Program-made: the position numbers and the translations under genes | Source: Streptomyces antibioticus | GTDB lineage: Bacteria; Actinomycetota; Actinomycetes; Streptomycetales; Streptomycetaceae | DNA: 64,000 bases | Direction: 5' to 3' | Assembly: GCF_001514065.1 (NCBI RefSeq) | Contig: NZ_KQ948425.1 | Span: forward strand, 364,067-428,066 | In this document: piece after piece, positions 29,947 through 59,421 of the stretch | Numbering within the stretch: position 1 is the first letter of the stretch | How the letters are laid out: every line of letters starts with the position of its first letter | Notes under the pieces: model-generated | What the model saw: the letters and a program-made list of their open reading frames with translations, nothing else | The model's database searches: none | Told to the model about the DNA's origin: nothing

Positions 29947-31512
29947 TCAGCCGCCGAGCAGGGGCCCGGTGGCCAGTGCTGCGGTCACGGGGTGGGACGG
30001 TGAGGTGAACAGCCGGGCGGTGGGCCCCGATTCGATGGCCTGTCCCCCGGACATCACGAGCAGGGTGTCGGTGCGGTCGGCGACGAGGCGCAGGTCGTGG
30101 CTGACCAGGACGAGGGACAGGCCGCGCCGGACGCGGAGGTCCGACAGCAGGTTCATGACGGCGTCGGTGGTGTCCGCGTCGAGGGCCGAGGTGACCTCGT
30201 CGCAGATCAGTACGTCGGGGTCGGCCGCCAGAGCGCGGGCTATGGCGACGCGTTGACGCTGGCCGCCGGAGAGTTCGTGGGGGTAGCGGTCGGCGAAGGC
30301 TGCGGGCAGGCCGACCTGGTCCAGGAGTTCCAGGACGCGGTCGGCGACGTCGGCTCGCCCGGCCCGTCGATGCAGCAGGAGCGGGCGGCGCAGGGTGGCC
30401 CCGATGGTGCGGCTGGGATTGAGGGTGCCCAGGGGGTCCTGGGGTACGAGTTGGAGGCGGCGGCGTTGGTCGCGGGAGCGGCTGTGTGCGGCGGGGGCGA
30501 GGTGGGTGCCGTCCAGGCTGACGGTGCCGGCGGTGGCGCGGTGCAGGCCGACGAGGGTGCGCAGCAGGGTTGTCTTGCCGGAGCCGGAGGCGCCGACCAC
30601 GCCGAGGCTGGTTCCGGCGGGCAGGCTGAGGTCGATGCCGTGCAGTACGGGGATGCGGCGGCCGCGATGGAGGTGGGCGGCGTGCAGGCCGGACGCGGTG
30701 AGCGTGGCAGGGCGGTCGTCGGGTGCGGATGCCGGCCCGCGTGGGACGGGTGTGGCTGTGGGCTCGCGTGGGACGCGTGTCGTGCGTGCGGTGTCCCTCG
30801 GACGTGGGCCGGTCAGGTCTACGACATCGTCGGCGAGCCGGTCGACCAGGTCGGGGTCGTGGCAGGACAGGCCGATCGCTATGCGGTGGTCCTCCGCGAG
30901 GTGGCGCAGGAGGTCGGCGATCTCGTCGCGCAGTGCGGGGTCGAGTCCGGCGGTGGGTTCGTCGAGGAGAAGGACGGCGGGGCGGCGGGCCAGGGCGCGG
31001 GCGAGCGCGACCCGGCGTTGCTGGCCGCCCGACAGGCCGCTGATGCGACGGTCGGGCAGGCCGTCGTCGGTGGGCAGTCGGACTTCGGCGAGCTGTGCCC
31101 TGATCGCGTCGGGGCTTTTGTCCACGGCGACTTCGGCGAGCAGGCGGCGTACCTTCATGCGCGGGTTGAGGGCGGAGCCGGGGTCCTGGCCGACGTAGGC
31201 GAGGCGGTGGCGCCGCAGGGTGCGCAGGGCTGGTGCCGAGAGGGTGAAGGGGTCTTCGCCGACGACGGTGATGCTGCCCGTGGTGCGTTCGGTGTGCGGG
31301 GGCAGGGTGCCGGTCACGGCTCGCAGCAGTGTGGTCTTGCCGCAGCCGGAGGGGCCGACCACGGCGGTGACGCGGCCGGGGGCCAGTTCGAGGCCGGCCC
31401 GGTCGAGCAGGAGGCGGCCGTTCGGGGCGGTGACGGTCAGGTCGCGGACGCGGACCGCGCTCTCTGCGTCGGCTGCTTGGCTGTGCGAGTACCAGTGGGG
31501 CATGTGGTTCAC
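29947..31512 (-). CDS. ABC transporter double ATPase (DppDF/NikDE-like fused)
   Basis: 521 residues with two complete ABC cassettes. Cassette 1 has Walker A GPSGCGKTT near residue 40, signature LSGGQQRRV and Walker B VLLLDEPTAG. Cassette 2 has Walker A GASGSGKTT near 315, signature LSGGQRQRVAIA and Walker B VLICDEVTSALD. GTG overlaps the stop of the upstream permease gene (GTGA). It is the energising subunit of a four-component importer of the oligopeptide/nickel class, here in one polypeptide. The locus is divergent from a diaminopropionate-type biosynthetic operon, so uptake of the matching metal complex is the likely job. Confidence 0.93.
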   Translation of the reverse strand: MNHMPHWYSHSQAADAESAVRVRDLTVTAPNGRLLLDRAGLELAPGRVTAVVGPSGCGKTTLLRAVTGTLPPHTERTTGSITVVGEDPFTLSAPALRTLRRHRLAYVGQDPGSALNPRMKVRRLLAEVAVDKSPDAIRAQLAEVRLPTDDGLPDRRISGLSGGQQRRVALARALARRPAVLLLDEPTAGLDPALRDEIADLLRHLAEDHRIAIGLSCHDPDLVDRLADDVVDLTGPRPRDTARTTRVPREPTATPVPRGPASAPDDRPATLTASGLHAAHLHRGRRIPVLHGIDLSLPAGTSLGVVGASGSGKTTLLRTLVGLHRATAGTVSLDGTHLAPAAHSRSRDQRRRLQLVPQDPLGTLNPSRTIGATLRRPLLLHRRAGRADVADRVLELLDQVGLPAAFADRYPHELSGGQRQRVAIARALAADPDVLICDEVTSALDADTTDAVMNLLSDLRVRRGLSLVLVSHDLRLVADRTDTLLVMSGGQAIESGPTARLFTSPSHPVTAALATGPLLGG

Positions 31513-32363
31513 AGTGCGGGTACCGCCTTCCGGCCGGTCGCGGGGACGAGGGCGGCGGCTGCCAGGTTGACGCTCATGGCGAGCAGGCCGATGGCGATGC
31601 TGGGGGCGAGGACGGCCCAGGGGTTGAGGACGATGCCGGCGGAGTTCTCCCGGATCATCAACGCCCAGTCGGCGGCGGGGGGTTGGGGGCCGACCTGGAG
31701 GAAGCCGGCGGTGGCGACGAGGTAGACGGCGGCGACGAAGCGCAGTCCGAACAGGGCCAGCAGGGTGGCCCGAAGGTTGGGGAGCACCTCCCGGACCACG
31801 AGGTACCCCAGTCGCTCGCCGCCGACGGCCGCCGCCTCCACGTACCCGGAGGCCGCCACGGGCGCGGCGGCCCCGGCGACCAGGCGCACGGCGTAGGGGA
31901 CGCCGAGGACGACGGACGCGGTGACGACGGCGAGGCGTCCGCCGTCCGGCCAGGACAGGGTGACCAGCAGGATGCCGAGCACGGCCGGCAGGAGCATGAG
32001 CACGTCGGCCGTGCGCTCGACGATCCGTCCGATGGCCGGGCGCAGGGCGCTGACCGCGCCGAGCACGGCGGCCACGGCGGTGACCAGGACGGCGACGAGG
32101 AGTGAGGTGACGACGAGCTCGCGTCCGCCGGCGAGGAGCCGGCTGAGCACGTCGCGGCCCAACTGGTCGCCGCCGAGCGGGGCGTCGCCGCCGGGTTCCG
32201 CGTACGGGGCGGTGACCGGGGCGTCGATGGCGTGCGGGGCGAGCCAGGGTCCGGCCAGGGCGAGGGCGGTGAGCAGTACGGCCGGGAGCACCCGCAGGGC
32301 TGTCCGGCGCCGGGTACGACGCGAGGCCGGTGCCGTCTTCGCGTCGGCGGTGGTCGCGGTCAT
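31509..32363 (-). CDS. ABC transporter permease (DppC/NikC-like)
   Basis: 284 residues; ATG overlaps the stop of the first permease gene (ATGA). An N-terminal span (VLPAVLLTALALAGPWLAP) is followed by the family loop APLGGDQLGRDVLSRLLAGG. Four or five further spans surround the EAA-like region GYVEAAAVGGERLGYLVVREVLPNL near residue 180. The PLGTDxxGRD-type motif is diagnostic of the DppC/OppC/NikC group. It works with the neighbouring permease, ATPase and binding protein. Confidence 0.92.
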   Translation of the reverse strand: MTATTADAKTAPASRRTRRRTALRVLPAVLLTALALAGPWLAPHAIDAPVTAPYAEPGGDAPLGGDQLGRDVLSRLLAGGRELVVTSLLVAVLVTAVAAVLGAVSALRPAIGRIVERTADVLMLLPAVLGILLVTLSWPDGGRLAVVTASVVLGVPYAVRLVAGAAAPVAASGYVEAAAVGGERLGYLVVREVLPNLRATLLALFGLRFVAAVYLVATAGFLQVGPQPPAADWALMIRENSAGIVLNPWAVLAPSIAIGLLAMSVNLAAAALVPATGRKAVPAL

Positions 32364-33367
32364 GTCCGGCCTCCCGAGGCCCAGGCGCGTACGAGGTCGG
32401 CGAGCAGCAGCACACCGGTGATGACGGCACCGGTGACGGCGACCACTCCGGCGATCACGGGGCTGTCCCGGTCGGCGACCGCGCCCGCGAGGACGGAGCC
32501 GATGCCGGGGTAGTTGAAGATGGTCTCCACCACGACCGCACCGCCCAGCAGCATGCCGGTGGAGGTGGCGATGCCGGCCGCGATGGTCGGCAGCGCGCCG
32601 GGCAGCAGGTGGTGGGTGAGGATCCGGCGCCGGGGCAGTCCGTCGAGGACCGCGGTCTCGATGTGCGCGGCCGTGGCCTCGTCGGCGAGCGCCGCCCGCA
32701 CGATCCGGGTGTTCCAGCCGATCTGCGGGACGGCCAGGGCGAGGACGGGCAGGACGAGCATCCGCCAGGAGGCGGGCGAGCCGTCGGCGTCGGTCAGGGT
32801 GACGGCGGGCAGCCAGTCGGCCCACAGCGCGAAGACGAGGACGAGGGCGACCGCGACGACGAACTCGGGCAGCGCGAGGATGCCGGTGGCGCTCGCCGAG
32901 ACCGCCCGGTCGAGCGGGCTTCCCGGTTTGGCCGCCGCCCAGCAGCCGAGGGCGACCGAGGCGACGAGGGTGAGCAGCAGTGCGAGCCCGCCGAGCAGGA
33001 GGGTGTTGGGGAACGGGTGGGCGAGCAGGTCCGCGACCGGCTCGCCACGGGCGGAGGTGCCCAGGTCGCCGGTGGGCAGGCCGGTCATCCAGTCCCAGAA
33101 CCGTTCCGCCACCGGCCGGTCCAGGCCCAGCAGATGGCGTCGCCGGGCGAGGTCGGCCGCGCTCTCGCCGCGTTCGGAGGTGGCGTCGGCCGCGTCACCC
33201 GGCAGGAGTTCGACGGCGGCGAAGACGGCGGCGAGCAGCCCGGCCAGCAGCAGGATCCGGCGTGCGAGCACACCGGCCGCGTACCAGACCGTACGTATCA
33301 CGGCAGGAACCGGCCGGGGCACGACGGTGCCCTCGGCCGGTTCGTCCCGGGTCAGCGAGCCAGCCAT
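32360..33367 (-). CDS. ABC transporter permease (DppB/NikB-like)
   Basis: 335 residues from ATG 33367, which lies 16 bases inside the end of the binding-protein gene; longer frames upstream overlap that gene entirely and are rejected. An N-terminal span (ILLLAGLLAAVFAAVELLPGDAAD) and the family stretch RRHLLGLDRPVAERFWDWMTGLPTGDLGTS mark a DppB/NikB-type permease. Later spans enclose HIETAVLDGLPRRRILTHHLLPGALP, the ATPase-coupling EAA loop. It pairs with the DppC-like permease encoded immediately downstream. Confidence 0.92.
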   Translation of the reverse strand: MAGSLTRDEPAEGTVVPRPVPAVIRTVWYAAGVLARRILLLAGLLAAVFAAVELLPGDAADATSERGESAADLARRRHLLGLDRPVAERFWDWMTGLPTGDLGTSARGEPVADLLAHPFPNTLLLGGLALLLTLVASVALGCWAAAKPGSPLDRAVSASATGILALPEFVVAVALVLVFALWADWLPAVTLTDADGSPASWRMLVLPVLALAVPQIGWNTRIVRAALADEATAAHIETAVLDGLPRRRILTHHLLPGALPTIAAGIATSTGMLLGGAVVVETIFNYPGIGSVLAGAVADRDSPVIAGVVAVTGAVITGVLLLADLVRAWASGGRT

Positions 33368-34905
33368 GCCTGCTCGAGCTGCACGCGGCCGTAGCCGGGC
33401 AGGGTCGGCAGGTTGCGCACGGCGGCACCCGCGAGGTCGATGCCGTCGGCCATGCCCCACAGCAGGTAGCCGGACTCGTCGTACTCGATCCGCTGGAGCT
33501 CGTGGAGGACCTCGGTGCGGGCCGCCGGGTCCTTGGTGGCCATGGCCTTCCGGTAGGCGGCGTCGAACTCCTTGTTCTTCCAACCGGCCTCGTTCTGACC
33601 GGAGTCGGACACCATGGTCTTGCTGGCGAAGAACACCACGGAGTCGTTGGTGCCCCAGTAGGTGGTGTACAGGTCGCCCTTGAGCCAGGTCTTGTCCCAG
33701 AACGTGGCCGACTCCTGCTTGACCACCTCCACCTTCACCCCGGCCTCACGGACCTGGGTGGCGAACAGGGTGGCGGACTCGGCGAGGCCCGCGATGTCCT
33801 CGGTGGTGAGCAGCTTGTACGTCTTCGACGTGTCGAAGCCTGCTTCCTTCAGCAACTGCTTGGCCTTGGCCAGGTCGCGCCCCCGCTGCGGGAGGTCCTT
33901 GGCGTAGGCGGGGTCGCCGGTGCCGAGGATGTCGTTGGCGACGGTGCCGTAGCCGGACAGCACCTGCTTGACCATGGCCTCGCGGTCCACGGCCAGGCGC
34001 AGCGCCTCGCGCACCTTCGCGTCCGCGAACGGTCCGTCGGCGGTCCGCATGACGATCGGCATCGCCATGTCGTTGGGGCGGCGCACGATCTGGATGTCGT
34101 CGCGCTTCTCGGCCGTACGGGCCGCGACCGCGCCCACGTTGGAGGCGACGTCGATCTGCCCGGCGAGCAGCGCGTTGCCCATCGCCTGGGGGCTTTCGAA
34201 GATCTTCACCTCGATGGCGTCGAGGTACACGTCCCCGCCGTACCAGTCGTCGTTGCGCACCAGGCGGGCGTTGCCGGAGCGGAACCAGTCCAGCTTGAAC
34301 GGGCCCGTGCCGGGCGCCTTGGCGAGGTCCTTGTCCGCCGTGTCCTTCTTCAGGACGAACGTCGTCAGGCGGGTCAGCAGGGGCAGTTCGGCGTTGGCGT
34401 AGTCGGAGACCAGGACGACCGCGTCGTCGCCCTCCGCCCTGATGTTCTCGGCCTTGATGCCGGGCAGCCGGGAGGCGCCGGCGGGGGTGTTGCGCAGTCG
34501 CTTCAGCGACCATACGACGTCCTCGGCGGTCACCGGCGTGCCGTCGTGGAACTTCGCACCCTTGGCGAGCGTGAAGCGCCAGGTCTTCAGGTCGTCCGAC
34601 GCCTGCCAGTTCGCGGCGAGGCGCGGGACGGTGTTGGGCTTGGTGCCGGGAACGGTGAGGGTGTCGTAGACCAGCGAGATGATCAGGTAGTCGCTCTCGT
34701 TGGCCTGCGTGCCGTGCGGATCGCGGGTGATGGCCGAGGCGCGGCCCAGGGCTCCGACCCGGAGGGTGCCGCCGGGCCGGGGCTTCTCGTTCGCCCTCGC
34801 CGGCGACTTGGCCGAGGTCTCGTCACCTCCGCCGCAGGCGGCAAGCAGCACGGCCGCGCCTATTCCGCCGCCGGCCCACAGCACTTGTCGTCTGTTCAGG
34901 TTCAC
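33352..34905 (-). CDS. ABC transporter substrate-binding lipoprotein, family 5 (NikA/DppA/CntA type)
   Basis: 517 residues; start set at GTG 34905, where a signal peptide begins. NRRQVLW is followed by a hydrophobic run and lipobox LLAAC (Cys 24), compatible with Tat export. The mature protein shows the SBP_bac_5 layout, with GTLRVGALGRASAITRDPHGTQANE at the start, LAKGAKFHDGTPVTAEDVVWSLKRL in the middle and YDESGYLLWGMADGIDLAG near the end. This class includes NikA and CntA, which bind metal chelates. Iron-box-like sites upstream and the divergent biosynthetic operon suggest a metallophore complex as ligand. Confidence 0.93.
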   Translation of the reverse strand: MNLNRRQVLWAGGGIGAAVLLAACGGGDETSAKSPARANEKPRPGGTLRVGALGRASAITRDPHGTQANESDYLIISLVYDTLTVPGTKPNTVPRLAANWQASDDLKTWRFTLAKGAKFHDGTPVTAEDVVWSLKRLRNTPAGASRLPGIKAENIRAEGDDAVVLVSDYANAELPLLTRLTTFVLKKDTADKDLAKAPGTGPFKLDWFRSGNARLVRNDDWYGGDVYLDAIEVKIFESPQAMGNALLAGQIDVASNVGAVAARTAEKRDDIQIVRRPNDMAMPIVMRTADGPFADAKVREALRLAVDREAMVKQVLSGYGTVANDILGTGDPAYAKDLPQRGRDLAKAKQLLKEAGFDTSKTYKLLTTEDIAGLAESATLFATQVREAGVKVEVVKQESATFWDKTWLKGDLYTTYWGTNDSVVFFASKTMVSDSGQNEAGWKNKEFDAAYRKAMATKDPAARTEVLHELQRIEYDESGYLLWGMADGIDLAGAAVRNLPTLPGYGRVQLEQAWLAR

Positions 34906-34942
34906 GTCGTACGACCTCGTTCCACTCACTTCGGCATGTTGC

Positions 34943-34961
34943 TTAGGTGTGCCTACCCTAA
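34943..34961. promoter_or_regulatory. iron-box-like site (DmdR/IdeR type), copy A
   Basis: TTAGGTGTGCCTACCCTAA, 19 bases with symmetrical TTAGG/CCTAA-like ends, 38 bases upstream of the binding-protein gene start. It matches the published streptomycete iron box at about 14 of 19 positions. Confidence 0.7.
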
Positions 34962-35087
34962 GAAATCTCTGTGCGCAAGGTATACCGAGGGCGCTCCCGA
35001 TCTCTGTCGGTGCGTCAACTCGGCGCACGGGAGCACGAATCGGCGCACGTGAGGCGGGTAGAGCCCGAGAGGAGCATAGAGCATAAG

Positions 35088-35106
35088 TAAGGGTTGCCTA
35101 ACCTAA
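35088..35106. promoter_or_regulatory. iron-box-like site (DmdR/IdeR type), copy B
   Basis: TAAGGGTTGCCTAACCTAA, 16 of 19 to the symmetrical iron box TTAGGTTAGSCTAACCTAA, 120 bases before the oxygenase start. With copy A it puts both divergent operons under probable iron repression. Confidence 0.78.
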
Positions 35107-35225
35107 GTGTGACTGATACGTTTCCGCAGCGATCACCCAGCCGACCCACACGAAACTCACAGGTCGGCGTTCCGAGCTCCACCGCACCCGCACCCCCCAC
35201 CCACCCCGAAAGGGATGTCTGCGCC

Positions 35226-36218
35226 ATGCCCACGGGAGCCGCACCCGTCCGACAGCTCGACTCGCACGCCGTCGAGGAGCTGACCGAGACCGCCCACAAG
35301 ATCCTTGCCGACGTCGGCAGTTCGGCCGCCGGGCCGGAACTCCTGCGCCGCGTCGCGACCTCCGCCGGCCGACTAGGGGAAACGATTCAGCAAGCGTGTC
35401 GCCCGGTCGACACCGACGACGGCCTGTACGTCCTGCGCGGCCTGTCGGTCGACGACGGCGGAATCGGCCCCACACCCGGCAGTTGGGCCACCGCCGGTGA
35501 CCGCGCCGCCGCCTGGGACGTGACCCTGCTGCTGCTCGCCACCGTCATGGGCCACCCGATCGCCTGGGAGGGGCAGCAGGAGGGCCGCTTCGTGCACAAC
35601 ATCGTGCCCGCGCCCGGCCACGAGGCAGAACAGACCGGCGCGAGCAGCGCCGTGCTGCTCAGCCCGCACACCGAGGACGCCTTCCACCCCGGCCGCGCCC
35701 ACCTGCTGCTGCTCGGCTGCATGCGCAACCACGACGCCGTCGCCACCACCGCCGCCAGCATCCGCAAGGTCCGCCTCAGCGCGGGCGACGCCGACCTGCT
35801 GGCCCGCCCGGTGCTGCCGATCCTCCCCGACGACGCCTACGCCGAGGCCCAGTCCTTCACGGGCCAGGAGCCGCCGAAGGTCCCCGTCCTGTGGCAGACC
35901 GAGAACGGCCCGACCCTGCGCTACGACCCCGCCTACACCCCGCTCGACGAGGCGCCCGCCGACTACCGGGCCGCCTACGACCGGCTCACCGCCGAACTGA
36001 AACGCGTCTCGGTCGCCGTCGCCCTGGAGCCCGGCGACGTCCTGGTCGTCGACAACGACCTGGTCGTGCACGGCCGGGTGCCGTTCACAGCCCGCTACGA
36101 CGGCACCGACCGCTGGCTCAAGCGCGCCTCGGTGCGCGTTCCCGGCCGCCGCAGCCGCCCACTCGCCGAGGCTGACGAACACGGCTACGGGCAGTCCGCC
36201 CTCGTGGCCCTGATCTGA
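35226..36218 (+). CDS. clavaminate-synthase-like Fe(II)/2-oxoglutarate oxygenase
   Basis: 330 residues from ATG 35226 with GAAAGGGA upstream. The iron ligands appear as HTE in LLSPHTEDAFHPGRAHLLLLGCMRN near residue 145, the HxE variant used by clavaminate synthase, AsnO and VioC rather than HxD. A distal His lies in VVDNDLVVHGRVPF, and a 2-oxoglutarate-binding Arg in RWLKRASVRV. Such enzymes hydroxylate free or bound amino acids. As first gene of the iron-box operon it may hydroxylate an amino acid precursor or the finished chelator; which one is not readable. Confidence 0.9.
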   Translation: MPTGAAPVRQLDSHAVEELTETAHKILADVGSSAAGPELLRRVATSAGRLGETIQQACRPVDTDDGLYVLRGLSVDDGGIGPTPGSWATAGDRAAAWDVTLLLLATVMGHPIAWEGQQEGRFVHNIVPAPGHEAEQTGASSAVLLSPHTEDAFHPGRAHLLLLGCMRNHDAVATTAASIRKVRLSAGDADLLARPVLPILPDDAYAEAQSFTGQEPPKVPVLWQTENGPTLRYDPAYTPLDEAPADYRAAYDRLTAELKRVSVAVALEPGDVLVVDNDLVVHGRVPFTARYDGTDRWLKRASVRVPGRRSRPLAEADEHGYGQSALVALI

Positions 36219-36312
36219 TCCCCCGTCAACCTCCCCCACCGAACCCCCTGGCCCGGTAATCCCCGGCCCGGAAATCCCCTGGTCCGAACCCCTGGCACGA
36301 AAGGGAACCGCC

Positions 36313-37344
36313 GTGACCGGCACCTCCGCACGCACGGACAACACCCCGTCCGACATGTCCGCGGACGACAAGACCCTGCGCATCCTGAGCACCAGCGACC
36401 TCGCGGGCATCGACATCTCCCTCACCGACGTGGTCGACGTGGTCGAGCAGGCGTACCGCACCCTCGCCGCCGGCAAGTCGGCCAACCCGCGCAAGCTCAC
36501 CGTCAAGCCCGAGGACGGCCACTCCGTCTCGTACGCCATGCTCGGCCGCGACGGTGTCCGCGAGGTCGTGGCGATCAAGACGTCGTACAAGCACGGCCTG
36601 GACCGCTCGCGTGACGAGCAGCACTACTACACGGCTCTGACCCTCTACGACGACGTCACCGGACTGCCGGTCGCGATGATGGACTGCGGCCGCATCGGCT
36701 CCCTGCGCACTCCCGCCGTCTCCGCGCTGCTCGCCCGCGAGTGCGCGCCGCCGAACAGCCGCAGCGCCCTCGTCATCGGCACCGGGACACAGGGCCGCCT
36801 CGCACTGCCGTTCCTGCTCACCACGCTGCCGGACCTGGACCGGCTCATGGTCCACGGCACCCACCCCGACGGCCTCGCCGCCGTCCGCGAACGGCTTCAC
36901 CACCACTTCCCCGACCGGGAGGTGGAGATCGTCGACGACGTACGGGCTGCCGCGGCCGACGCCGATGTCGTGGTCGCCACCGCGGGCCAGCACACCCCGG
37001 CCGCCGTCGAGTCCGACGACCTGAAGCCGGGCGCCCTGTCCATCCTGGTGGGCCACGGCATCGCGCCCTCCACGCTCCAGCGAGCGGACCGGGTCATCGC
37101 GACCAGCGAGGCGCAGATGAAGGTCACCGGCACGGACATGGCCGACAAGGACGGCAACTTCCCAGCCGTGGACGCCGAGTTCCCCGAGGTGCTGGCGGGC
37201 CGCGCGCGTGGCCGGCAGTCACCGGACGAGCGGATCTTCGCGTACAACAGCGGGCTCGTCGTCACCGACATCGCGCTCGGCCACCGTTTCGCGCAGCTGG
37301 CCATCGAACAGGGGCTGGGGACGCGGGTGTCGCTGTGGCACTGA
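36313..37344 (+). CDS. SbnB-like N-(1-amino-1-carboxyethyl)-glutamate dehydrogenase / ornithine cyclodeaminase family
   Basis: 343 residues; GTG with GAAAGGG upstream. The family N-terminus is GIDISLTDVVDVVEQAYRTLAAGK, followed by YAMLGRDGVREVVAIKTSYKHG and ALTLYDDVTGLPVAMMDCGRIGSLRTPAVSALLA. The NAD-binding GTGTQGRLALPFL lies near residue 160. In staphyloferrin B synthesis SbnB oxidatively cleaves the SbnA product to release L-2,3-diaminopropionate and 2-oxoglutarate. An SbnA-like gene two positions downstream supports the same chemistry here. Plain ornithine cyclodeaminase is the alternative, but the pairing argues against it. Confidence 0.85.
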   Translation: MTGTSARTDNTPSDMSADDKTLRILSTSDLAGIDISLTDVVDVVEQAYRTLAAGKSANPRKLTVKPEDGHSVSYAMLGRDGVREVVAIKTSYKHGLDRSRDEQHYYTALTLYDDVTGLPVAMMDCGRIGSLRTPAVSALLARECAPPNSRSALVIGTGTQGRLALPFLLTTLPDLDRLMVHGTHPDGLAAVRERLHHHFPDREVEIVDDVRAAAADADVVVATAGQHTPAAVESDDLKPGALSILVGHGIAPSTLQRADRVIATSEAQMKVTGTDMADKDGNFPAVDAEFPEVLAGRARGRQSPDERIFAYNSGLVVTDIALGHRFAQLAIEQGLGTRVSLWH

Positions 37345-38681
37345 CCGACCCGACGGCGGCCCCGCCGCTGCCGGCCCACCCGGATCCGCAGCTCGACGCG
37401 GTACTGGCCGGCTCGCTTCCCCACGAGCTGTCGTACGCGATCGGCGGCCCCTTCCATCTGCTGCTGCCCGACCGCTTCGACGCCAACGCCGCCGCCTTCA
37501 CGGCGGTGCTCGACGAGTTCGGCGTCGAGGGGTACGTGTACTACGCGAAGAAGGCGAACAAGGCCGCCGCGTGGATCGAGCGGTGCGCCCTGTCGGGTCT
37601 AGGCGTCGACGTCGCCAGCGCCGGTGAACTGCGGGACGCGCTCGGGCACGGAGTGCGCGGCGAGCACATAGCGGTCACCGGGCCCGCCAAGGCGGACGCC
37701 CTGCTGCGCGTCGCCGTGCTCCAGGGCTGTCTGATCGCAGTGGACGCCCTCGACGAACTGGACCGGGTCATCGCGCAGGCACGGTCGGCCGGACGTCCGG
37801 CGCGGGTGCTGTTGCGGCGGCTTCCGCCCGCCCAGCCGCACAGCCGATTCGGCATGGACGACGGGGAGTTGGAGACCGCGCTCGTACGGTGCCGGGAAGC
37901 CGACGTCACGATGGAGGGATTCTCCTTCCACCTCTCCGGCTACGACCCGCTGATGCGGGCCCGGCTCGCCGCCGAACTGGTCGACCTGTGCCTCAAGGCG
38001 AGGGCGCTGGGCCTGCGCGCCGACCGGATCAGCATCGGCGGCGGGTTCGCCGTCGACTACACCGGCGCCGAGCACTGGGAACGCTTCCTGCGCGAGCAGC
38101 GGCCCGAGCACTATCACGCGGGCAAGTCATTCGGCCCGGCCGACTTCTACCCGTACCACTCGCCGCTGGCGGGCCCCGACGCCCTGCGTGCGGTCCTCAC
38201 CACGGACTCTCTCGCCGAGCGTCTGCGCGAGGCGGGCGTGATGCTCCTGATGGAGCCGGGGCGGGCGCTGCTGGACCGGGCCGGCTGCACGGTCTTCCGG
38301 ATCCAGGGCGTCAAGGACCGGTCTTCCGGATACGGCATCGTCACCGTGGACGGCAGCAGCCTCAGCCTGTCCGAGCAGTGGTTCAACAGCGAGTACCTGC
38401 CGGATCCGGTGCTGCTGCCCGCCCAGGAGTCCGCAAGCGAGCCGTACGCCGCCTGTGTCGGCGGCGCCACCTGCCTGGAGTCCGACATGGTCACCTGGCG
38501 CAAGGTGCGGTTCCCCACCCGTCCCGCCGTCGGCGACCTGCTCGTCTACCCCAACACCGCCGGGTACCAGATGGACTCCAACGAGTCCCCCTTCCACGAG
38601 CTTCCGCTTCCCCCGAAGGTCGTCCTCGACACCGCCGGCCGCTCGACCCGCTGGCGGTTCGACCGCCCTCCACTCGCCTGA
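37335..38681 (+). CDS. PLP-dependent type III decarboxylase (SbnH/DAPDC/ODC-like)
   Basis: 448 residues. GTG 37335 lies ten bases inside the SbnB-like gene, so translation is coupled. The fold-type III marks are the PLP lysine in YVYYAKKANKAAA near residue 71, the phosphate loop ISIGGGFAVDY near residue 236, EPGRALLDRAG near 307, and the substrate Cys/Asp motif GGATCLESDMV near 377. SbnH in staphyloferrin B synthesis decarboxylates a citryl-diaminopropionate; related enzymes act on lysine, ornithine or diaminopimelate. Here no citrate-condensing enzyme is encoded, so the substrate may be a diaminopropionate adduct. Confidence 0.87.
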   Translation: MALTDPTAAPPLPAHPDPQLDAVLAGSLPHELSYAIGGPFHLLLPDRFDANAAAFTAVLDEFGVEGYVYYAKKANKAAAWIERCALSGLGVDVASAGELRDALGHGVRGEHIAVTGPAKADALLRVAVLQGCLIAVDALDELDRVIAQARSAGRPARVLLRRLPPAQPHSRFGMDDGELETALVRCREADVTMEGFSFHLSGYDPLMRARLAAELVDLCLKARALGLRADRISIGGGFAVDYTGAEHWERFLREQRPEHYHAGKSFGPADFYPYHSPLAGPDALRAVLTTDSLAERLREAGVMLLMEPGRALLDRAGCTVFRIQGVKDRSSGYGIVTVDGSSLSLSEQWFNSEYLPDPVLLPAQESASEPYAACVGGATCLESDMVTWRKVRFPTRPAVGDLLVYPNTAGYQMDSNESPFHELPLPPKVVLDTAGRSTRWRFDRPPLA

Positions 38682-38709
38682 CTCTTCCCCGAGAACCTGG
38701 AGCCATCCG

Positions 38710-39738
38710 ATGGACAAGGCGCTTTCGCGTCCCGCCGTGGTCAGCCGCGTCTCCGACCTCATAGGCCACACCCCGCTCCTCGAAGTGTGCCGCACCGACA
38801 CCGGCAGCCGCCTCCTGCTCAAACTCGAACAGTTCAACCCCACCGGAACCGCGAAGATCCGCATGGCCCGGCAGATGGTCCTCGACGCCGAGGAGCGCGG
38901 ACTGCTGCGCCCCGGCGGCCGTATCGTCGAGTCCACCTCCGGCAACACCGGCCTCGGCCTCGCCGTCATCGCCGCCGAGCGCGGCTACACCTTCACCGCC
39001 GTCGTCGACCATCACGCCGCCGCCGACAAACTGCGCGGCATGAAGGCGCTCGGCACCGAACTCGTCTATGTCGCCGAGGACGGAGACGAGGAACTCGCCA
39101 CCGCCGCCCGCGAGGAGTTCGCCGAGAAACTGGCGGCCGAGAGCGACAACGCCTACTTCACCGAACAGCACAACAACCCCGCCAACGGCGACGGTTACCG
39201 TCCCGTGGCGCATGAACTCGACGCCGCGCTCGACGGCCGTATCGACATCCTGATAGGCGCCGTCGGCACCGGCGGAGGACTCTTCGGGACCGGCGGGGAA
39301 CTGCGCAAGACCGTGCCCGGCGTGCGGATCGTCGGCGTCGAACCGAAGGGCTCGATCGCCTTCGGGCCGCCCGCCCACGACTACTACCAGTCCGGCACGG
39401 GCACCCCCGAGGGCGCCACCATCGGCGCCATGGTCGACTACGACCTGCTCGACGAGGGCGCAAAGGTCGGCGACGTCGAGGCGTTCGCCACCGCACGCGT
39501 GCTGGCCCGCCGGATCGGCCTCCTCATCGGCGGCTCCGCGGGCGGGGTCGTGTACGAGGCTCTGACCCGGATGTCCTCGCTCCCGCCGGGCACGACTATG
39601 GTCGCGCTGGTCAACGACGGAGGCGAGAAGTACATGGACACCGTCTTCAACGACGACTGGATGAACGCCCGCCATCTCATCGACCCGGCCGTCGAGCGCG
39701 AAATCGACGAGCTGCTGACCAAACTCCGCGGGAACTGA
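38710..39738 (+). CDS. SbnA-like PLP-dependent beta-replacement enzyme (cysteine-synthase family)
   Basis: 342 residues from ATG 38710. The cysteine-synthase fold shows VSDLIGHTPLLEV at the start, the PLP lysine in QFNPTGTAKIRMARQM near residue 47, ESTSGNTGLGLA near 76, and the phosphate loop GAVGTGGGLFGTGG near 184. The Lys motif reads TAKIR rather than the SxKDR of housekeeping cysteine synthases, fitting an SbnA-type role. SbnA joins O-phosphoserine to glutamate to make the substrate of SbnB. Aspartate as amine donor is a possibility for aminopolycarboxylate products. Confidence 0.86.
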   Translation: MDKALSRPAVVSRVSDLIGHTPLLEVCRTDTGSRLLLKLEQFNPTGTAKIRMARQMVLDAEERGLLRPGGRIVESTSGNTGLGLAVIAAERGYTFTAVVDHHAAADKLRGMKALGTELVYVAEDGDEELATAAREEFAEKLAAESDNAYFTEQHNNPANGDGYRPVAHELDAALDGRIDILIGAVGTGGGLFGTGGELRKTVPGVRIVGVEPKGSIAFGPPAHDYYQSGTGTPEGATIGAMVDYDLLDEGAKVGDVEAFATARVLARRIGLLIGGSAGGVVYEALTRMSSLPPGTTMVALVNDGGEKYMDTVFNDDWMNARHLIDPAVEREIDELLTKLRGN

Positions 39739-39786
39739 CCCGATGCCGACACCACTTCGCGAGAACTGACACCGATGCCGACACCG
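39724..39786 (+). repeat. tandem duplication across the SbnA/MATE junction
   Basis: Unit 1 (39724-39754, 31 bases) and unit 2 (39755-39786, 32 bases) match at about 28 positions. Each contains the end of the upstream reading frame, a stop and an ATGCCGACACC start. The first start yields a nine-codon frame (MPTPLREN, stop), so the real MATE start is the second, at 39775. Confidence 0.85.
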
Positions 39787-41178
39787 CTCACCACCCTGCT
39801 CCGCGACAGCCGCGCCCTGGCGACCCTGGCCGTACCGCTCGCCCTGACCCAGCTCGCCCAAGTCGCCCTCACCACCACCGACACCGTGATGATGGGCCTG
39901 ATGAGCGCCGAGGCCCTGGCCGGCGGCGGCCTGGCGATGGTCATCTTCAACCAGCTGCGCACCATGGGCGTCGGCCTGGTCACCGCCGTGGGCAACCAGG
40001 TGTCCGCCGCCTCCGCCCGCGCCGACGAGGACGACGAACTCAGCGAGACGGCGCAGGAGGAGGTCCGCGACGTGGTCCGTGCCGCGCTGGCGCTGGCCAC
40101 CCTGGCCGGCATCGTCGGCGCCCTCGTCATCCTGCTGATCGGCCGGGCCGTGACCTACCTGGGCCAGGACCCCGAGGTCGTGGACACCGCCTGGCCGGTG
40201 CTGCTCGCCCTCGCTCCCGGCCTGATCCCTTGCCTGTGGTTCCAGGCGATCCGACAGTTCACCGTCGGAATGCGCCGCCCGCAGGCACTGCTGCAGATCA
40301 CGATCGCCTCCGTCGCGGTCAACGCGGGCCTCAACTGGGTCCTCATACACGGCACTTGGGTGTTCCCCGAGTGGGGCCTGCCCGGTATCGGCATCGCCAC
40401 ATCGCTGGTCTACCTGCTGACCTGCGTCGCCCTGTACGCCTCCGCCCACCGCGACGCCCGGCTCGCCCCGCTGCTGGACGTCCGGATCTGGAAGGCCCGC
40501 CCGGCCACGCTGCGCCGCCTGACCGGCCTGGGTGTGCCCATCGCCGCCACCTACGGCTCCGAGGCCGGGTTCTTCTCCGTCGTCGCTCTGCTGATCGGCA
40601 CCTTCGGCAGCGCCGCGCTGGCCGCGCACACAGCCGTCAACCAGCTGATCTACATCGTCTTCCAGATCGCCGTCGGTCTGTCCCACGCCGCGTCCCTCAA
40701 CGTGAGCCGTGAACTCGCCCTGGACCGGATCGACGTGGCCCGGCGGATCAAGAACACGGCACTGGCCTGTGCGGCGGCCGTGATGACCGTCGTCGGCGTC
40801 GTCTACGTCACCGTCCCCGGGCTGGTGTTGCGCCCCTTCCTCGACCCGTCGTCCGCCGACGGGCGCAGCGCGACGGACATCGCCACCAACCTGCTCCTGG
40901 TCGCGGCCGTTCTGCAGTTCTTCGACTGCACCCAGAACATCGGCGTCGGCCTGTTGCGCGGCCTGGACGACACCAAGAGCGGTTTCCGGATCACGCTCGT
41001 GGGCTACTGGCTGATCGGCCTGCCCGCCGCCTGGCTCTTCGGGAGCCTCGCCGGCCTGGACACCCTAGGCGTCTGGCTCGGCCTGCTCACCGGCCTCGCC
41101 GCCACCGCCCTGCTCCTGCTGCGCCGCTACCGCCAAGCACTGTCCCTGCACGCGACCGCACAGCCGGCCGTCGTCTGA
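39775..41178 (+). CDS. MATE family efflux transporter
   Basis: 467 residues with about 12 hydrophobic spans. MATE marks include ALTQLAQVALTTTDTVMMGLMSAEALAGGGLA in the first helices and GLGVPIAATYGSEAGFFSVVALLIGTFGSAALAAHTAVNQL at the start of the second half. As last gene of the iron-box operon it is the likely exporter of the product made by the four upstream enzymes. MATE proteins use Na+ or H+ gradients. Its start region has been duplicated in tandem (see repeat). Confidence 0.92.
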   Translation: MPTPLTTLLRDSRALATLAVPLALTQLAQVALTTTDTVMMGLMSAEALAGGGLAMVIFNQLRTMGVGLVTAVGNQVSAASARADEDDELSETAQEEVRDVVRAALALATLAGIVGALVILLIGRAVTYLGQDPEVVDTAWPVLLALAPGLIPCLWFQAIRQFTVGMRRPQALLQITIASVAVNAGLNWVLIHGTWVFPEWGLPGIGIATSLVYLLTCVALYASAHRDARLAPLLDVRIWKARPATLRRLTGLGVPIAATYGSEAGFFSVVALLIGTFGSAALAAHTAVNQLIYIVFQIAVGLSHAASLNVSRELALDRIDVARRIKNTALACAAAVMTVVGVVYVTVPGLVLRPFLDPSSADGRSATDIATNLLLVAAVLQFFDCTQNIGVGLLRGLDDTKSGFRITLVGYWLIGLPAAWLFGSLAGLDTLGVWLGLLTGLAATALLLLRRYRQALSLHATAQPAVV

Positions 41179-41849: not shown

Positions 41850-41983
41850 CCACCGCAACTCAGGGTGGTTGTGCACGCGTTGGTGGTCCAAGGAAAGACG
41901 CCCCACTTCCTGTGGGGAAATGCAGGTGCAAGGCCTGCCCGGCGCTCCAACTGGGGCCTGTCCGCACCGCCGGACAGGCCCCA
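41850..41983 (+). ncRNA. candidate structured RNA: five consecutive stem-loops
   Basis: In a region without genes, five stems follow each other: CCACC/GGTGG (41850-41868), GCG-TTGG/CCAA-CGC (41877-41901), CCCCAC/GTGGGG (41901-41917), GCAGG/CCTGC with a 7-base loop TGCAAGG (41922-41938), and a perfect 13-base-pair stem (41952-41983) that looks like a terminator. The third and fourth recall parts of known structured RNAs (GGGGAA before a GGTGCAA loop, as in cobalamin riboswitch P4, or a tRNA T-arm), but the remaining conserved elements are missing. High GC content makes chance hairpins common, so this is a candidate only. Confidence 0.35.
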
Positions 41984-52690: not shown

Positions 52691-53803
52691 TCAGGTGCGC
52701 CCGGATTCCTTGGCGCCCCTCAGCTGAGAGCCGTAGAACGCCAGATGGCGTTCCGCGGCGGTGGTCCAGGTGTGGCGGGCGGCGAGTCGGCGGCCCCTCT
52801 CCCGGCGCGCGGGGCTGTCGTCCGTCAGCGCGGCGCCGAGTTCGGCGGCCAGGTCCTGGTGGGTGGTCGCGAAACGGGCGGCGCTGTCGAACACCTCGCG
52901 CAGTACTGGAAGATCGCGTACGACCAGAGGAACTCCCGCAGCGAGTGCCTCCATTGCGGCGAGGCCGAAGCCCTCCTTGACGGAGGGGAAGGCGAAAGCG
53001 GAGGCGGCCGCCACCAAGGGCGGCAGCTCGTCCTCGGCCACCTGGCCCAACACGACCGGCTCGACGCCGAGTTCGGCCGCACGCGCCTCCCAGCGGGCCC
53101 GGTAGTCGCGATAGTCGAAGAGGGTCTCACCGCCCGCGATCACCAGCCGTACATCCGGGTGTGCGGAACGCAGCAGGGCGAACGCCTCCAGCAGGTCGAG
53201 GGAGCCCTTGCGGGGTTCGATGCCGCCGACGGTGAGGACGTAACGGCCCAGCCGGGCACGCCAGTTCGCGCGGGCGGCCGGGTCGGTGGTGGCGAAACGG
53301 TCGTAGGCCACGCCGTTGGGGATGACGGCCGCCTTGATGCCCCAGCCGTCGGCCAGTTCCATGGCGACGGCCGCCGACACGCAGACGTGGGCGGACGGCT
53401 CGACGATGGCCCGCTCGTGGCAGGCGGCCAGTTCGGGGGTGGTGAAGTGGTCGATGTGGTGGACCGTGCGGATGCAGCGGCCGCCGACCGCGTTGGCGCT
53501 GATGCAGTCCTGGGCGTGGACGATGTCGTACGCCGCCGCGGAGAGTGCGAAAGCCTCGCCCAGGACGGCGATGGAGCGCAGGATGCGTTCGCCGACCGTC
53601 TCCTCCGGCGGGCCGTCCGGAAACGGCACGATCCGCAGCCGTACGGCGGGGTCGACCGGCCGGAAGAAGCCCGCGTCCCCGCCACGGCCCAGCGTCCACA
53701 CCGTGACGTCCTGCCCGGTCGCGGCGAGCGCCTCGGCGAGGGCGAGGGTGTGGACGACGCCGCCGCGCGGCTTGGTGGAGTAGCTCAGCAGAGCGATCTT
53801 CAC
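52691..53803 (-). CDS. MSMEG_0565-family glycosyltransferase (Nit1C cluster)
   Basis: 370 residues; GTG overlaps the stop of the preceding nitrilase-like gene (GTGA). GT4-type features are the N-terminal KIALLSYSTKPRGGVVHTLALAEAL, the donor-binding TVGGIEPRKGSLDLLEAFALL near residue 190, and the E-x7-E motif in FPSVKEGFGLAAMEALAAGVPL near 285. It matches the glycosyltransferase family named after MSMEG_0565, found beside the nitrilase cluster. A glycosylated product of the pathway is thus implied, but unidentified. It is the last gene of the nine-gene operon. Confidence 0.9.
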   Translation of the reverse strand: MKIALLSYSTKPRGGVVHTLALAEALAATGQDVTVWTLGRGGDAGFFRPVDPAVRLRIVPFPDGPPEETVGERILRSIAVLGEAFALSAAAYDIVHAQDCISANAVGGRCIRTVHHIDHFTTPELAACHERAIVEPSAHVCVSAAVAMELADGWGIKAAVIPNGVAYDRFATTDPAARANWRARLGRYVLTVGGIEPRKGSLDLLEAFALLRSAHPDVRLVIAGGETLFDYRDYRARWEARAAELGVEPVVLGQVAEDELPPLVAAASAFAFPSVKEGFGLAAMEALAAGVPLVVRDLPVLREVFDSAARFATTHQDLAAELGAALTDDSPARRERGRRLAARHTWTTAAERHLAFYGSQLRGAKESGRT

Positions 53804-54636
53804 GACGGATTCTCCCGGTAGGCGTCGGGGCGGCGTTCGTCGAGGTGGCGCAGGATGCGGCGGGCGCGGTCGATCTCCTCGGCGACGTCGATCTCGGCGA
53901 CCGCGAGGCCGGCCTTGGACCAGGTGCGGGCGAGGATGTCACCGCCCGGGCCGACCACCTTGGACTGGCCGAGGAACCGCATGCCGCCCATGGCGCCGGT
54001 CTGGTTGGAGGAGGCGAGGACGACCTGGTTCTCGGCGGCGCGGGCCTGGTCGTAGAGGTCGAAGAGCTTGGCCTGGCGGTCCTGGGCCATGCGCGGGGCG
54101 CGGTTGGTGATGGACGTGGGCCAGGCGGAGAGGCAGGCGAGGATCTCGGCGCCGTCCAACGCCAGCGAACGGGCCGACTCGGGGAACGTCTTGTCGTAGT
54201 CGATGAGCATGCCGACGCGGCCGACGGGGGTGTCGAAGGCGTCGAAACGGTCACCGGGCGCGTAGGCGGCGACCTCGCCGGCCGGCAGGTGGACCTTGCG
54301 GTGACGGCCGAGGACTCCGTCGCCGCTGACGCACACCGCGGCGTTGTAGCGCTCGTCGCCGCCGTCCTCGCAGTAGCCGAGGCAGACCACCATCTCGGCG
54401 GCCAGGCGGGCGACTTGGAGGATCAGCGGGTCGTCCGGCTTCAGGGCCGGCGGCAGCGCGTCCGGGTCGGGATGGCGCAGGTCGGCGAGGTAGCCGCCGA
54501 GCGCGGCGTCGGGCAGGACCAGCAGTCCGGCCCCCTCGCGCCGAGCGTCGTCGATGAGCTTCCCGATACGGGCGAGGTCGAACTCCAGGTCGCGGCCGAA
54601 GTGGGCGGCCGCGGCCGCGATCCGGATCGTGCTCAT
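53800..54636 (-). CDS. nitrilase-superfamily paralogue lacking catalytic Cys (probable pseudo-enzyme)
   Basis: 278 residues; ATG overlaps the stop of the active paralogue (ATGA). The overall fold matches the upstream nitrilase, but two of three catalytic residues differ. The Glu in LLALPEACLGGY of the paralogue is Asp here (LLVLPDAALGGY), and the nucleophile Cys in GMMICYDKAFPE is Asp here (GMLIDYDKTFPE). The Lys (GRHRKVHLP) is kept. It probably cannot hydrolyse nitriles or amides by the usual thiol route and may instead be a regulatory or structural partner of its paralogue. Confidence 0.9.
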   Translation of the reverse strand: MSTIRIAAAAAHFGRDLEFDLARIGKLIDDARREGAGLLVLPDAALGGYLADLRHPDPDALPPALKPDDPLILQVARLAAEMVVCLGYCEDGGDERYNAAVCVSGDGVLGRHRKVHLPAGEVAAYAPGDRFDAFDTPVGRVGMLIDYDKTFPESARSLALDGAEILACLSAWPTSITNRAPRMAQDRQAKLFDLYDQARAAENQVVLASSNQTGAMGGMRFLGQSKVVGPGGDILARTWSKAGLAVAEIDVAEEIDRARRILRHLDERRPDAYRENPS

Positions 54637-55484
54637 GTGCTGACTGCTCCTGTGGGTATGTCGTAGGTCTCGGGCCGCCGGTCGCGCAGGTGGCCCATCG
54701 ACCGCCGGGCGGTCTCCAGTGCCTGTGCGACGTCCAGTTCGGCGACGGCGACGCCGGCGGCGACGCCCGTGTCGGCGAGGATCTCGCCACCGGGGTCGAC
54801 GACCTTGGCGCTGCCGACGAAGCGTAGCGACCCGAACGTGCCCGCCTGGTTGGCCGACAGCCACACGATCTGGTTCTCCAGCGCGCGGGCCCGGTCGAAG
54901 AGGTCGAAGCGGCGTTTCCAGCGGTCGTTGACGAGGTCGGTGGCCGCGTTCGTACGGGATCCCGGCCAGGCGGAGACACAGACCCCGATCTCGGCGCCGT
55001 CGAGCGCGAGCGCGCGGGCGGATTCCGGGAACGCCTTGTCGTAGCAGATCATCATGCCGATACGGCCGACCGGTGTGTCGAAGGCATGGAAGCGGTCACC
55101 GGAGGCGTAGCTGGCGTCCTCGCTGAGGGGCTGGTGGACCTTGCGGTGGTTGCCGAGGACGCCGTCGCCGGTGACGCAGACGACGCTGTTGTAGCGGGCT
55201 TCTCCGGCCGCTTCGCAGTACCCGGCGACGACCGTCATCTCCCCCGCCAGGGAGGCCAGTCGACGGATCTCGGGGCCGTCGAGGGCGAGCGCGGGCGGGC
55301 CCTCGTCGAGTTCGGTGGAGTCGTCGAGGCTGAGCAGATACCCGCCGAGGCACGCCTCGGGCAGCGCCAGCAGGCGTACGCCCTCCTCCCGGGCTTCCTT
55401 GATCAGCCGTTCGGCGATCTGGAAGTCCTCCTCCAGGTCGCGGCCGAACTCGGCGGCGACAGCGGCCATGCGCAGGGTGGTCAT
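54633..55484 (-). CDS. Nit1C-type nitrilase (carbon-nitrogen hydrolase)
   Basis: 283 residues; ATG overlaps the stop of the AIR-synthase-like gene (ATGA). The catalytic triad is intact: Glu in LLALPEACLGGY near residue 47, Lys in GNHRKVHQPLSE near 120, and Cys in GMMICYDKAFPESARAL near 153. In cyanobacteria (Nit6803) and pseudomonads the matching nitrilase hydrolyses nitriles, and the cluster is required for growth on cyanide in one pseudomonad. It is expected to act on a small nitrile formed within the pathway. Confidence 0.9.
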   Translation of the reverse strand: MTTLRMAAVAAEFGRDLEEDFQIAERLIKEAREEGVRLLALPEACLGGYLLSLDDSTELDEGPPALALDGPEIRRLASLAGEMTVVAGYCEAAGEARYNSVVCVTGDGVLGNHRKVHQPLSEDASYASGDRFHAFDTPVGRIGMMICYDKAFPESARALALDGAEIGVCVSAWPGSRTNAATDLVNDRWKRRFDLFDRARALENQIVWLSANQAGTFGSLRFVGSAKVVDPGGEILADTGVAAGVAVAELDVAQALETARRSMGHLRDRRPETYDIPTGAVST

Positions 55485-56920
55485 GCGGTCCCCATCCCGG
55501 TCACGGTGGACATGACCGCTTCGGTGATCTCTCCGTCGGGCCAGCGCAGCCCGACGCCTACTCCTTCGGTGAGCTCCCCGCACACCGCGCCCGTGGCGGG
55601 TCCGGCGGGCACGGGCGGTGCTCCCGGTTCGTCGGCCGTGAGCATCGCGAAGCCCGGGAAACAGGTGAACCAGTCCCCCACCGTCGCGGCCTCCGGCCGG
55701 GGCACGGCGGCCACATCAAGCACCGCGCGGCAGCCGCTCGCCTCCGCGAGCATGCCGAGGGTGCCGGCGATGCCCGCCATCGACACGTCCTTGGCGGCGG
55801 CGGGCTGTGCGGCGGCCACCGCACCGGTCATGGTGCGCAGTTCATTTGTACGGCGGTGGCTGGTCGAGTCCCATTGGCGGCCCCGGTAGCCCGGGCGCCA
55901 GCTCCCGCCGAGGTCGGCGGTGAGGCGTACGGCGTGTCCGGGGCGGCCGCCACCGCCTGGCACCGGCCGGTCCGTGCGACCGAGCGCGGTCACCGACAGG
56001 GCGGCCGGGACGCCGAGTTGTGTGTGTCCGCCGAGCACCGGGATGTCGTACGCCTGTGCCGCCCGGGCCAGTCCGGCCAGGATCCGGGCGGCGTGAGCGG
56101 CGTCGCGGGCGCCGACCGCGTCCAGCAGGCCGAGCGGTGCTGCACCCATCGCGGCGAGGTCGTTGACGTTCACGAGGACCGCGCACCAACCCGCCCACTC
56201 GGGGTCCCGTTCGACCATGGACGGCACGATCGCGTCACAGGCCGCGATGACGTCGGTGCCGGGGACGGGGGCGCCGTCGTCACCGACGAAGCCCGGGGGC
56301 GATGCCAGCGCGGTGAGGAGCGGTCCGAGAGGGGACTTCGTGGCCGCCGCGAGGGCGGCGATGCGGCCGATCGGCCAGCGCATCAGGACGTGCGGCGCGC
56401 CCGCGACCGTCGTGTCCCGCACTCGCTGCCAGCCGAGGCGCCGGAACAGCACCTCGTTGCGCGTCTGGACCGTCGCGTCGAACCGCAGCACGCCCTCCGC
56501 CTCGGCGCGGGCGCAGGCGGCCCGGACGAGCGCCGCGCCGACGCCGTGCGGGCCGCGGGCCCGGCGGGCGACGACCAGGCGGCCGCCCTGCCACCAGCCG
56601 AGGTCGGGGCCGTCGTCGACCGGGCCGAGGCGCACCCCGCCGATCACGGTTCCCTCGGGGTCCTTCGCGACCAGGACGACGGTGCGTGGGTCGGTGTCGT
56701 GGTCGTCCAGGTCGTGGTGAGCGAAGAGTTCCTGCTCCTGGACGAAGGCGGCGCGGCGCAGCTCCCGGTAGGCGGCCATGTCCGCCGTGCCGTCCGCCTC
56801 CTCGATGTGGAAGGCGGGACGGCGGGCGAGCGTGTTGCGGTCGCCCAGCAGGGCCAGGATGTCCTGCGGATCGTCCACGACCGGAACGGCCACGGAACCG
56901 TCGAGGTTCACGGCGCTCAC
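55481..56920 (-). CDS. MSMEG_0567/Sll0787-type fusion: GNAT domain plus AIR-synthase-like domain
   Basis: 479 residues from GTG 56920, overlapping the radical SAM stop (GTGA). Residues about 25-185 are an acetyltransferase-like domain (FVQEQELFAHHDLDDHDTD, GGRLVVARRARGPHGVGAALVRAACARAEAEG, LFRRLGWQRV). The rest is PurM/AIR-synthase-like (CDAIVPSMVERDPEWAGWCAVLVNVNDLAAMGAAPLGLLDAV, VLGGHTQLGVPAALSVTALG, KDVSMAGIAGTLGMLAEASG). Separate genes sll0786 and sll0787 encode these halves in Synechocystis. An ATP-dependent step on an amide or nitrile precursor is inferred. Confidence 0.9.
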   Translation of the reverse strand: MSAVNLDGSVAVPVVDDPQDILALLGDRNTLARRPAFHIEEADGTADMAAYRELRRAAFVQEQELFAHHDLDDHDTDPRTVVLVAKDPEGTVIGGVRLGPVDDGPDLGWWQGGRLVVARRARGPHGVGAALVRAACARAEAEGVLRFDATVQTRNEVLFRRLGWQRVRDTTVAGAPHVLMRWPIGRIAALAAATKSPLGPLLTALASPPGFVGDDGAPVPGTDVIAACDAIVPSMVERDPEWAGWCAVLVNVNDLAAMGAAPLGLLDAVGARDAAHAARILAGLARAAQAYDIPVLGGHTQLGVPAALSVTALGRTDRPVPGGGGRPGHAVRLTADLGGSWRPGYRGRQWDSTSHRRTNELRTMTGAVAAAQPAAAKDVSMAGIAGTLGMLAEASGCRAVLDVAAVPRPEAATVGDWFTCFPGFAMLTADEPGAPPVPAGPATGAVCGELTEGVGVGLRWPDGEITEAVMSTVTGMGTA

Positions 56921-58008: not shown

Positions 58009-58018
58009 GTCGTGCTCC

Positions 58019-58549: not shown

Positions 58550-58600
58550 GGCTGTCTCCTTGTGCTCCTGGTGCGTACGGGAAGGGAGTGGGGGTCGGGG

Positions 58601-59416: not shown

Positions 59417-59421
59417 GGTGT

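Follow-up and report, generated by a model that had tools for sequence, protein, structure and literature searches.

The 64-kb stretch of Streptomyces antibioticus DNA analysed here (the window, C4:364067-428066 of a 10.1 Mb genome in 29 contigs) contains a divergent nine-gene locus that, judged from its sequence, is very probably the locus for the siderophore ethylenediaminesuccinic acid hydroxyarginine (EDHA) of a Streptomyces. There is good support for the prediction that the product is a small, iron-controlled aminopolycarboxylate siderophore of the ethylenediamine type. Five co-directional genes on the plus strand (35226-41178) oppose a four-gene importer of the NikA type on the minus strand (29947-34905), and the intergenic region between them holds two iron boxes. 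This gene content, with its order and strands, had been described in a first reading of the letters alone (the original prediction), and it is borne out by the open reading frame listing, Pfam and NCBIfam. The features are given below in window coordinates; several of the start codons are inferred.

29947-31503, minus strand: fused two-domain ABC ATPase of the Dpp/Nik type (NikDE-like), presumed energiser of the importer; two ABC_tran stretches; start inferred
31509-32363, minus strand: NikC-type permease; PF00528, 4.2e-15; ATGA overlap with the NikB-type gene
32360-33367 (about), minus strand: NikB-type permease; PF00528, 7.8e-30; start inferred
33352-34905, minus strand: family-5 solute-binding lipoprotein (SBP_bac_5; NikA/CntA/DppA superfamily); PF00496, 4.9e-80; lipobox LLAAC
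34943-34961, plus strand: iron box 1, TTAGGTGTGCCTACCCTAA, a 19-mer upstream of the importer operon, conserved in relatives
35088-35106, minus strand: iron box 2, TTAGGTTAGGCAACCCTTA, a 19-mer upstream of the biosynthetic operon, conserved in relatives
35226-36218, plus strand: Fe(II)/2-oxoglutarate oxygenase of the VioC/OrfP/GntD type (TauD family); PF02668
36313-37344, plus strand: OCD/mu-crystallin-family dehydrogenase, SbnB-like; PF02423, 2.5e-29
37335-38681, plus strand: fold-III pyridoxal phosphate (PLP) decarboxylase of the Orn/DAP/Arg type, LysA/SbnH-like; PF02784, 6.8e-22
38710-39738, plus strand: fold-II PLP beta-substitution enzyme, SbnA/CysK-like (PALP); PF00291, 4.2e-61
39775-41178, plus strand: MATE exporter; PF01554, 1.5e-31; TIGR00797 (matE) above cut-off

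Collinearity with the probable EDHA cluster of Streptomyces scabiei

The key evidence for the assignment is that all nine genes are collinear, on the same strands, with positions 589,750-600,781 of S. scabiei 87.22 (NC_013929; locus L075, compared as stop-to-stop frames). Identity to the S. scabiei proteins is 62.6% for the ATPase, 81.0% for the NikC-type permease (over 263 residues), 74.2% for the NikB-type permease and 83.3% for the binding protein on the importer side, and 70.0% for the oxygenase, 76.1% for the SbnB-like, 70.5% for the SbnH-like and 85.9% for the SbnA-like enzyme and 75.8% for the MATE protein on the other. The S. scabiei intergenic region also contains two iron boxes, with 3 mismatches each.

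For S. scabiei, the potato-scab Streptomyces, PMC8914351 links an 11 kb cluster from scab_5231 to scab_5311 with the production of EDHA and cites Spohn et al. 2018 (Metallomics 10:722) for it. The title of Spohn et al. in its reference list names an aminopolycarboxylic acid siderophore gene cluster. The same paper places the EDHA tags between SCAB_4951-5131 (2-methylisoborneol, 2-MIB) and SCAB_5421-5511 (isorenieratene). In NC_013929, a phytoene-synthase-family match, of the kind that isorenieratene genes should include, stands at 612,083-612,871, about 11 kb downstream of the nine-gene block. Nine tags at steps of ten, a length of 11.0 kb and an isorenieratene-type neighbour together match the tags to 589,750-600,781, which is most probably the published EDHA cluster.

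The cluster type is therefore already known, having been published in 2018 and deposited in MIBiG as BGC0002567 (PMC11888242), and there is little new in its discovery here. In the GATOR-GC preprint, EDHA-family windows number 1,450 across 24 genera, with Streptomyces accounting for 597 (PMC11888242), and a biosynthetic gene cluster with 100% antiSMASH similarity to EDHA is described for another Streptomyces (PMC11705897). The original prediction had inferred an iron-controlled aminopolycarboxylate or ethylenediamine-type metallophore made without a ligase and with an added hydroxylase. This is the product type reported for the orthologous S. scabiei cluster. The novelty that the prediction implied is not borne out, and EDHA, which it overlooked, is by nine-gene collinearity a closer named system than the [S,S]-ethylenediaminedisuccinic acid ([S,S]-EDDS) and staphyloferrin B pathways that it put forward.

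Iron boxes and regulation

The two iron-box-like 19-mers proposed between the operons were recovered in a scan of the whole genome. The scan used an iron-box consensus, allowed up to 3 mismatches and took the reversed pattern as control. It returned 12 forward and 12 reverse matches, both window sites among them, compared to 1 and 1 for the control. Two further matches, at C2:861758 and C2:863922, sit near an IucA/IucC match at C2:867633, as expected for a real iron regulon. The genome encodes a single protein with the Fe_dep_repr_C domain (DmdR/IdeR type). Under iron starvation, a DmdR1/IdeR-type repressor would leave both boxes, and both operons would be switched on.

The boxes are a recurring property of this locus. 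For comparison we used the best 80 of 299 relatives from named genome contigs, which are mostly Streptomyces and not independent of each other. The window and the 74 of these 80 loci that have both the binding-protein and the oxygenase gene were surveyed over 16 scored positions. Of the 75 loci, 68 carry one or more boxes with no more than 3 mismatches, a count to be read in light of their relatedness. Altogether there are 116 boxes in 26,923 bp of intergenic DNA versus 4 in 1,355,615 bp elsewhere in the loci, and none appeared in five base-shuffled versions of the intergenic DNA.

Biosynthetic enzymes and the proposed route

For the oxygenase, the nearest solved chain is 4m23, an L-arginine beta-hydroxylase (E 3.7e-53) that we take to be OrfP. 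Scores of 259.2 bits for GntD (cut-off 345) and 213.4 bits for VioC (cut-off 418.6) miss both equivalog cut-offs. Across 77 aligned rows the HTED segment, a distal histidine, several arginines and a DPAYTP segment are kept, and alignment to 4m23 places among them the H-x-E ... H residues, presumably metal-binding, and the downstream arginines of the arginine-hydroxylase group, whose role we likewise assume. With arginine beta-hydroxylases as nearest solved relatives and these residues conserved, the protein is probably a beta-hydroxylase of arginine or of an arginyl adduct, which fits a hydroxyarginine product.

The SbnB-like protein reaches 110.5 bits with TIGR03944 (cut-off 326.9) and has 4m54 as its best solved chain (E 1.1e-18). 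Its gene overlaps by 10 bases with that of the SbnH-like decarboxylase, which scores 100.2 bits with the LysA model (cut-off 297.9) and whose KKxNK and CLxSD residues are conserved in 81 rows. The SbnA-like enzyme scores 223 bits with TIGR03945 (cut-off 349.95); the lysine of its NPTGTAKIR motif and the ESTSGNTG loop are conserved in 77 rows. We take KKxNK and NPTGTAKIR to hold the PLP lysine of the two enzymes. Since their scores are far under the NCBI equivalog cut-offs, the SbnA-like and SbnB-like proteins are, on this profile evidence, relatives of the L-2,3-diaminopropionate (Dap) enzymes and stand outside those curated families. The four S. scabiei enzymes show the same pattern of sub-cut-off scores, which suggests that the enzymes of both clusters, all below the SbnA, SbnB, LysA, VioC and GntD cut-offs, form subfamilies of their own.

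The importer proteins behave similarly. The best models for the fused ATPase are the dipeptide-type ATPase NF008453 and NikE, the NikC-type permease matches Opp1C/NikC models and the NikB-type permease Opp2B/NikB models, all under cut-off. The binding lipoprotein is the presumed ferric-EDHA receptor, and the MATE protein is presumed to be the siderophore exporter.

From these activities a short pathway can be proposed. The SbnA-like enzyme would transfer the C3 unit of O-phosphoserine or O-acetylserine onto the alpha-amine of aspartate or arginine, and an N-(2-aminoethyl) amino acid would remain once the SbnH-like enzyme had stripped the serine-derived carboxylate. The SbnB-like dehydrogenase would use a 2-oxo acid to add the second arm through reductive amination, and the VioC/OrfP-like oxygenase would hydroxylate the arginine side chain. 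Either amino acid could be loaded first, and the order of steps is one we infer. The MATE protein would then export the chelator and the NikA-type ABC importer would retrieve its iron complex. As the name EDHA describes an ethylenediamine with succinate on one nitrogen and hydroxyarginine on the other, the SbnA-SbnH-SbnB sequence is the simplest route. A ligase would be unnecessary, since each junction is a C-N bond to an alpha-amine. From the name, the formula of EDHA would be C12H23N5O7, with a calculated [M+H]+ of 350.167 and a ferric complex near 403.08.

The prediction that no nonribosomal peptide synthetase (NRPS) or NRPS-independent siderophore synthetase is encoded at the locus is confirmed, and it extends to the whole contig C4. 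IucA/IucC (PF04183) has four matches in the genome (C2, C15 and two on C7) and none on C4; the condensation domain (PF00668) has ten (C12, C17, C2 and C1) and none on C4, in a search that did not cover other ligase types such as ATP-grasp genome-wide. Within the window, the locus is flanked by 29.9 kb of DNA on one side and 22.8 kb on the other.

A wider scheme can be put forward: the OCD-family SbnB-like enzyme would run in the reductive, opine-forming direction, three enzymes would make two C-N bonds ligase-free, and sibling clusters would differ from one another in amino acid, hydroxylase and importer. We regard it as tentative, possible and somewhat short of probable.

Distribution among relatives

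In the genus, 199 genomes were sampled with the SbnH-like decarboxylase as query (E <= 1e-50) and the neighbourhoods of the matches were then read. Matches occur in 26 genomes, and 21 of these, the window's included (21/199), carry the orthologous cassette, with two copies in one genome (G018). The oxygenase is found in 21 of 21 relatives' loci (at L053 in pieces) and an adjoining binding protein in 19 of 21. The other five genomes have only diverged pairs or a sibling cluster. At class level (394 genomes, E <= 1e-60), 12 genomes have matches, and they belong to 3 of the 137 genera. Besides Streptomyces, the 80 named loci include Nocardia, Nonomuraea, Pseudonocardia, Streptosporangium, Sphaerisporangium and Streptantibioticus, a spread that fits the count of 24 genera in PMC11888242; no record titled Amycolatopsis is among them.

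The nine genes are complete in 59 of the 80 named loci when matches may not overlap and in 63 when they may, as four loci miss NikB through the overlap filter alone. L074 is excluded from this count, its NikB-like match (34%) belonging to a second transporter. Of the sixteen other loci, 10 run into a contig end on the side of the missing genes and 6 do not. An oxygenase of the arginine-hydroxylase group is present in 78 of 80, and in the two exceptions, L061 and L108, the contig stops just upstream.

Several genomes depart from the single complete cluster. Two diverged EDHA-type clusters per genome are found in S. cinnamoneus JCM 4633 (L086/L121), sp. SAJ15 (L072/L076) and sp. DSM 15324 (L062/L074). 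The loci of S. buecherae (L101), S. chattanoogensis (L107) and Pseudonocardia spinosispora (L134), together with L051 and L052, are uncut at this side and have the biosynthetic genes without an adjacent NikA-type binding protein; their uptake may be encoded elsewhere or proceed by another route.

The sibling cluster, L054 (G188:C136, at a contig end), has no oxygenase. It carries SbnH-like (49%), SbnB-like (45%), MATE (44%) and SbnA-like (62%) genes together with those for a class I/II aminotransferase, a Peripla_BP_2 binding protein, a FecCD permease and what reads by eye as an ABC ATPase. No iron box was found there at up to 4 mismatches. Where the window has the oxygenase and the NikA-type importer, L054 has an aminotransferase and a FecCD importer, so it would be an example of the proposed swapping, and its product is possibly another ligase-free aminopolycarboxylate. 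L055-L059, from five Streptomyces-group genomes, were treated as another type of cluster and left out (SbnH-like 33-35%, SbnA-like 29-30%); the diverged SbnH/SbnA pair of L056 adjoins, read by eye, a rhodanese domain and a class V aminotransferase.

Alternative products

Some observations weigh against the assignment to EDHA. The scab_ tags are most probably those of the collinear block, tied to its coordinates by gene count, length and neighbours and not by reading of the tags, and the EDHA structure comes from the title of one paper and from publications that cite it. One of the less conserved proteins of the locus is the oxygenase, and its 70.0% identity to S. scabiei means that the hydroxylation site or the substrate could differ. 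The full-length loci L101, L107 and L134 lack the adjacent binding protein, the importer is missing at L051 and L052 as well, L097 has only a 51% binding protein and no permease or ATPase match, and among uncut loci L132 has no NikC and L135 no MATE match. In seven of the 75 surveyed loci no box comes within 3 mismatches; each of the seven has a site at 4 or 5.

One alternative is a variant of EDHA in which the backbone is kept and the hydroxylation, or the second amino acid, is another. The oxygenase and decarboxylase (70.5%) are less similar to S. scabiei than the SbnA-like enzyme, and the two cluster copies in three named genomes invite divergence. The HTED, distal histidine and DPAYTP segments are, however, conserved over 77 rows and synteny with S. 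scabiei is complete, so that we consider a variant unlikely. Less likely still is a zinc-serving product, either [S,S]-EDDS or something closely related to it. The original prediction gave a similar enzyme class for it, and NikA/CntA-type binding proteins carry several metals. Against it stand the oxygenase in 78 of the 80 named loci and the iron boxes in the promoter region, versus the control of EDDS by Zur and zinc stated in PMC9252823; Zur boxes were not searched for. Given the conserved arginine-hydroxylase-type oxygenase and the boxes, EDDS is not favoured as the product.

A third alternative would have the SbnA/SbnB-like pair make free Dap, as in staphyloferrin B, for a distant synthetase whose product the SbnH-like enzyme decarboxylates. 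The SbnA and SbnB families are among the best curated relatives of the two proteins, and IucA/IucC and NRPS genes are present elsewhere in the genome. Both proteins are nevertheless far under the equivalog cut-offs, the contig has no IucA/IucC or condensation-domain match, the nine-gene block recurring in relatives holds no such synthetase, and the S. scabiei ortholog is linked to EDHA in PMC8914351. Given the cut-offs and the missing IucA/IucC and condensation-domain matches on the contig, we reject a Dap supply of the staphyloferrin B kind as very unlikely. EDHA is the reading that we retain.

Neighbouring genes

A tRNA-Gly (tcc) lies at 41877-41949, about 0.7 kb downstream of the MATE gene, and an alpha-L-fucosidase with ricin-type lectin domains at 8486-10948. 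Further downstream, at 52691-60823 on the minus strand, is a cluster of MSMEG_0565 to MSMEG_0572 families, which we take to be Nit1C. It comprises a glycosyltransferase, nitrilases, GNAT/AIR-synthase-like, radical SAM and flavin oxidoreductase proteins, and a link to the siderophore is not evident. Among 20 flanking window proteins scanned, none is terpene- or carotenoid-like. This, with protein identities of no more than 62.6-85.9% over the nine genes, speaks against the window being S. scabiei DNA itself.

Comparison with known systems

The analysis links the divergent locus with a siderophore pathway that already has a name and, over 75 loci, finds the pathway genes usually accompanied by the importer and the iron boxes. 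For specialists this is a confirmation with wide sampling and no surprise, and the part of most interest is the C-N bond enzymology. Possibly useful beyond the known cluster are the sampling of synteny and iron boxes and the sibling cluster L054.

The S. scabiei EDHA cluster shares the nine genes, their order and strands and two iron-box-like sites in the corresponding intergenic region, and it differs in protein sequence (62.6-85.9% identity) and in the spacing of its boxes, 70 bp compared to 145 bp here. The [S,S]-EDDS system (aes, Amycolatopsis japonica), compared here by description, is by name also an aminopolycarboxylate with an ethylenediamine bridge, and its production is under Zur and zinc control (PMC9252823) in contrast to the iron boxes of the window. 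Staphyloferrin B (sbn) shares SbnA-, SbnB- and SbnH-type enzymes, whereas here no IucA/IucC synthetase is near and the SbnA and SbnB equivalog cut-offs are missed. The nickel and opine importers NikABCDE and CntABCDF likewise have a family-5 binding protein, two permeases and two ATPase domains; in the window the ATPase domains are fused and the four importer proteins are under the Nik/Cnt equivalog cut-offs. The arginine beta-hydroxylases OrfP, VioC, CmnC and GntD share the fold family and conserved residues with the oxygenase and include its best solved relatives, while the cut-offs of VioC and GntD set it apart from these two.

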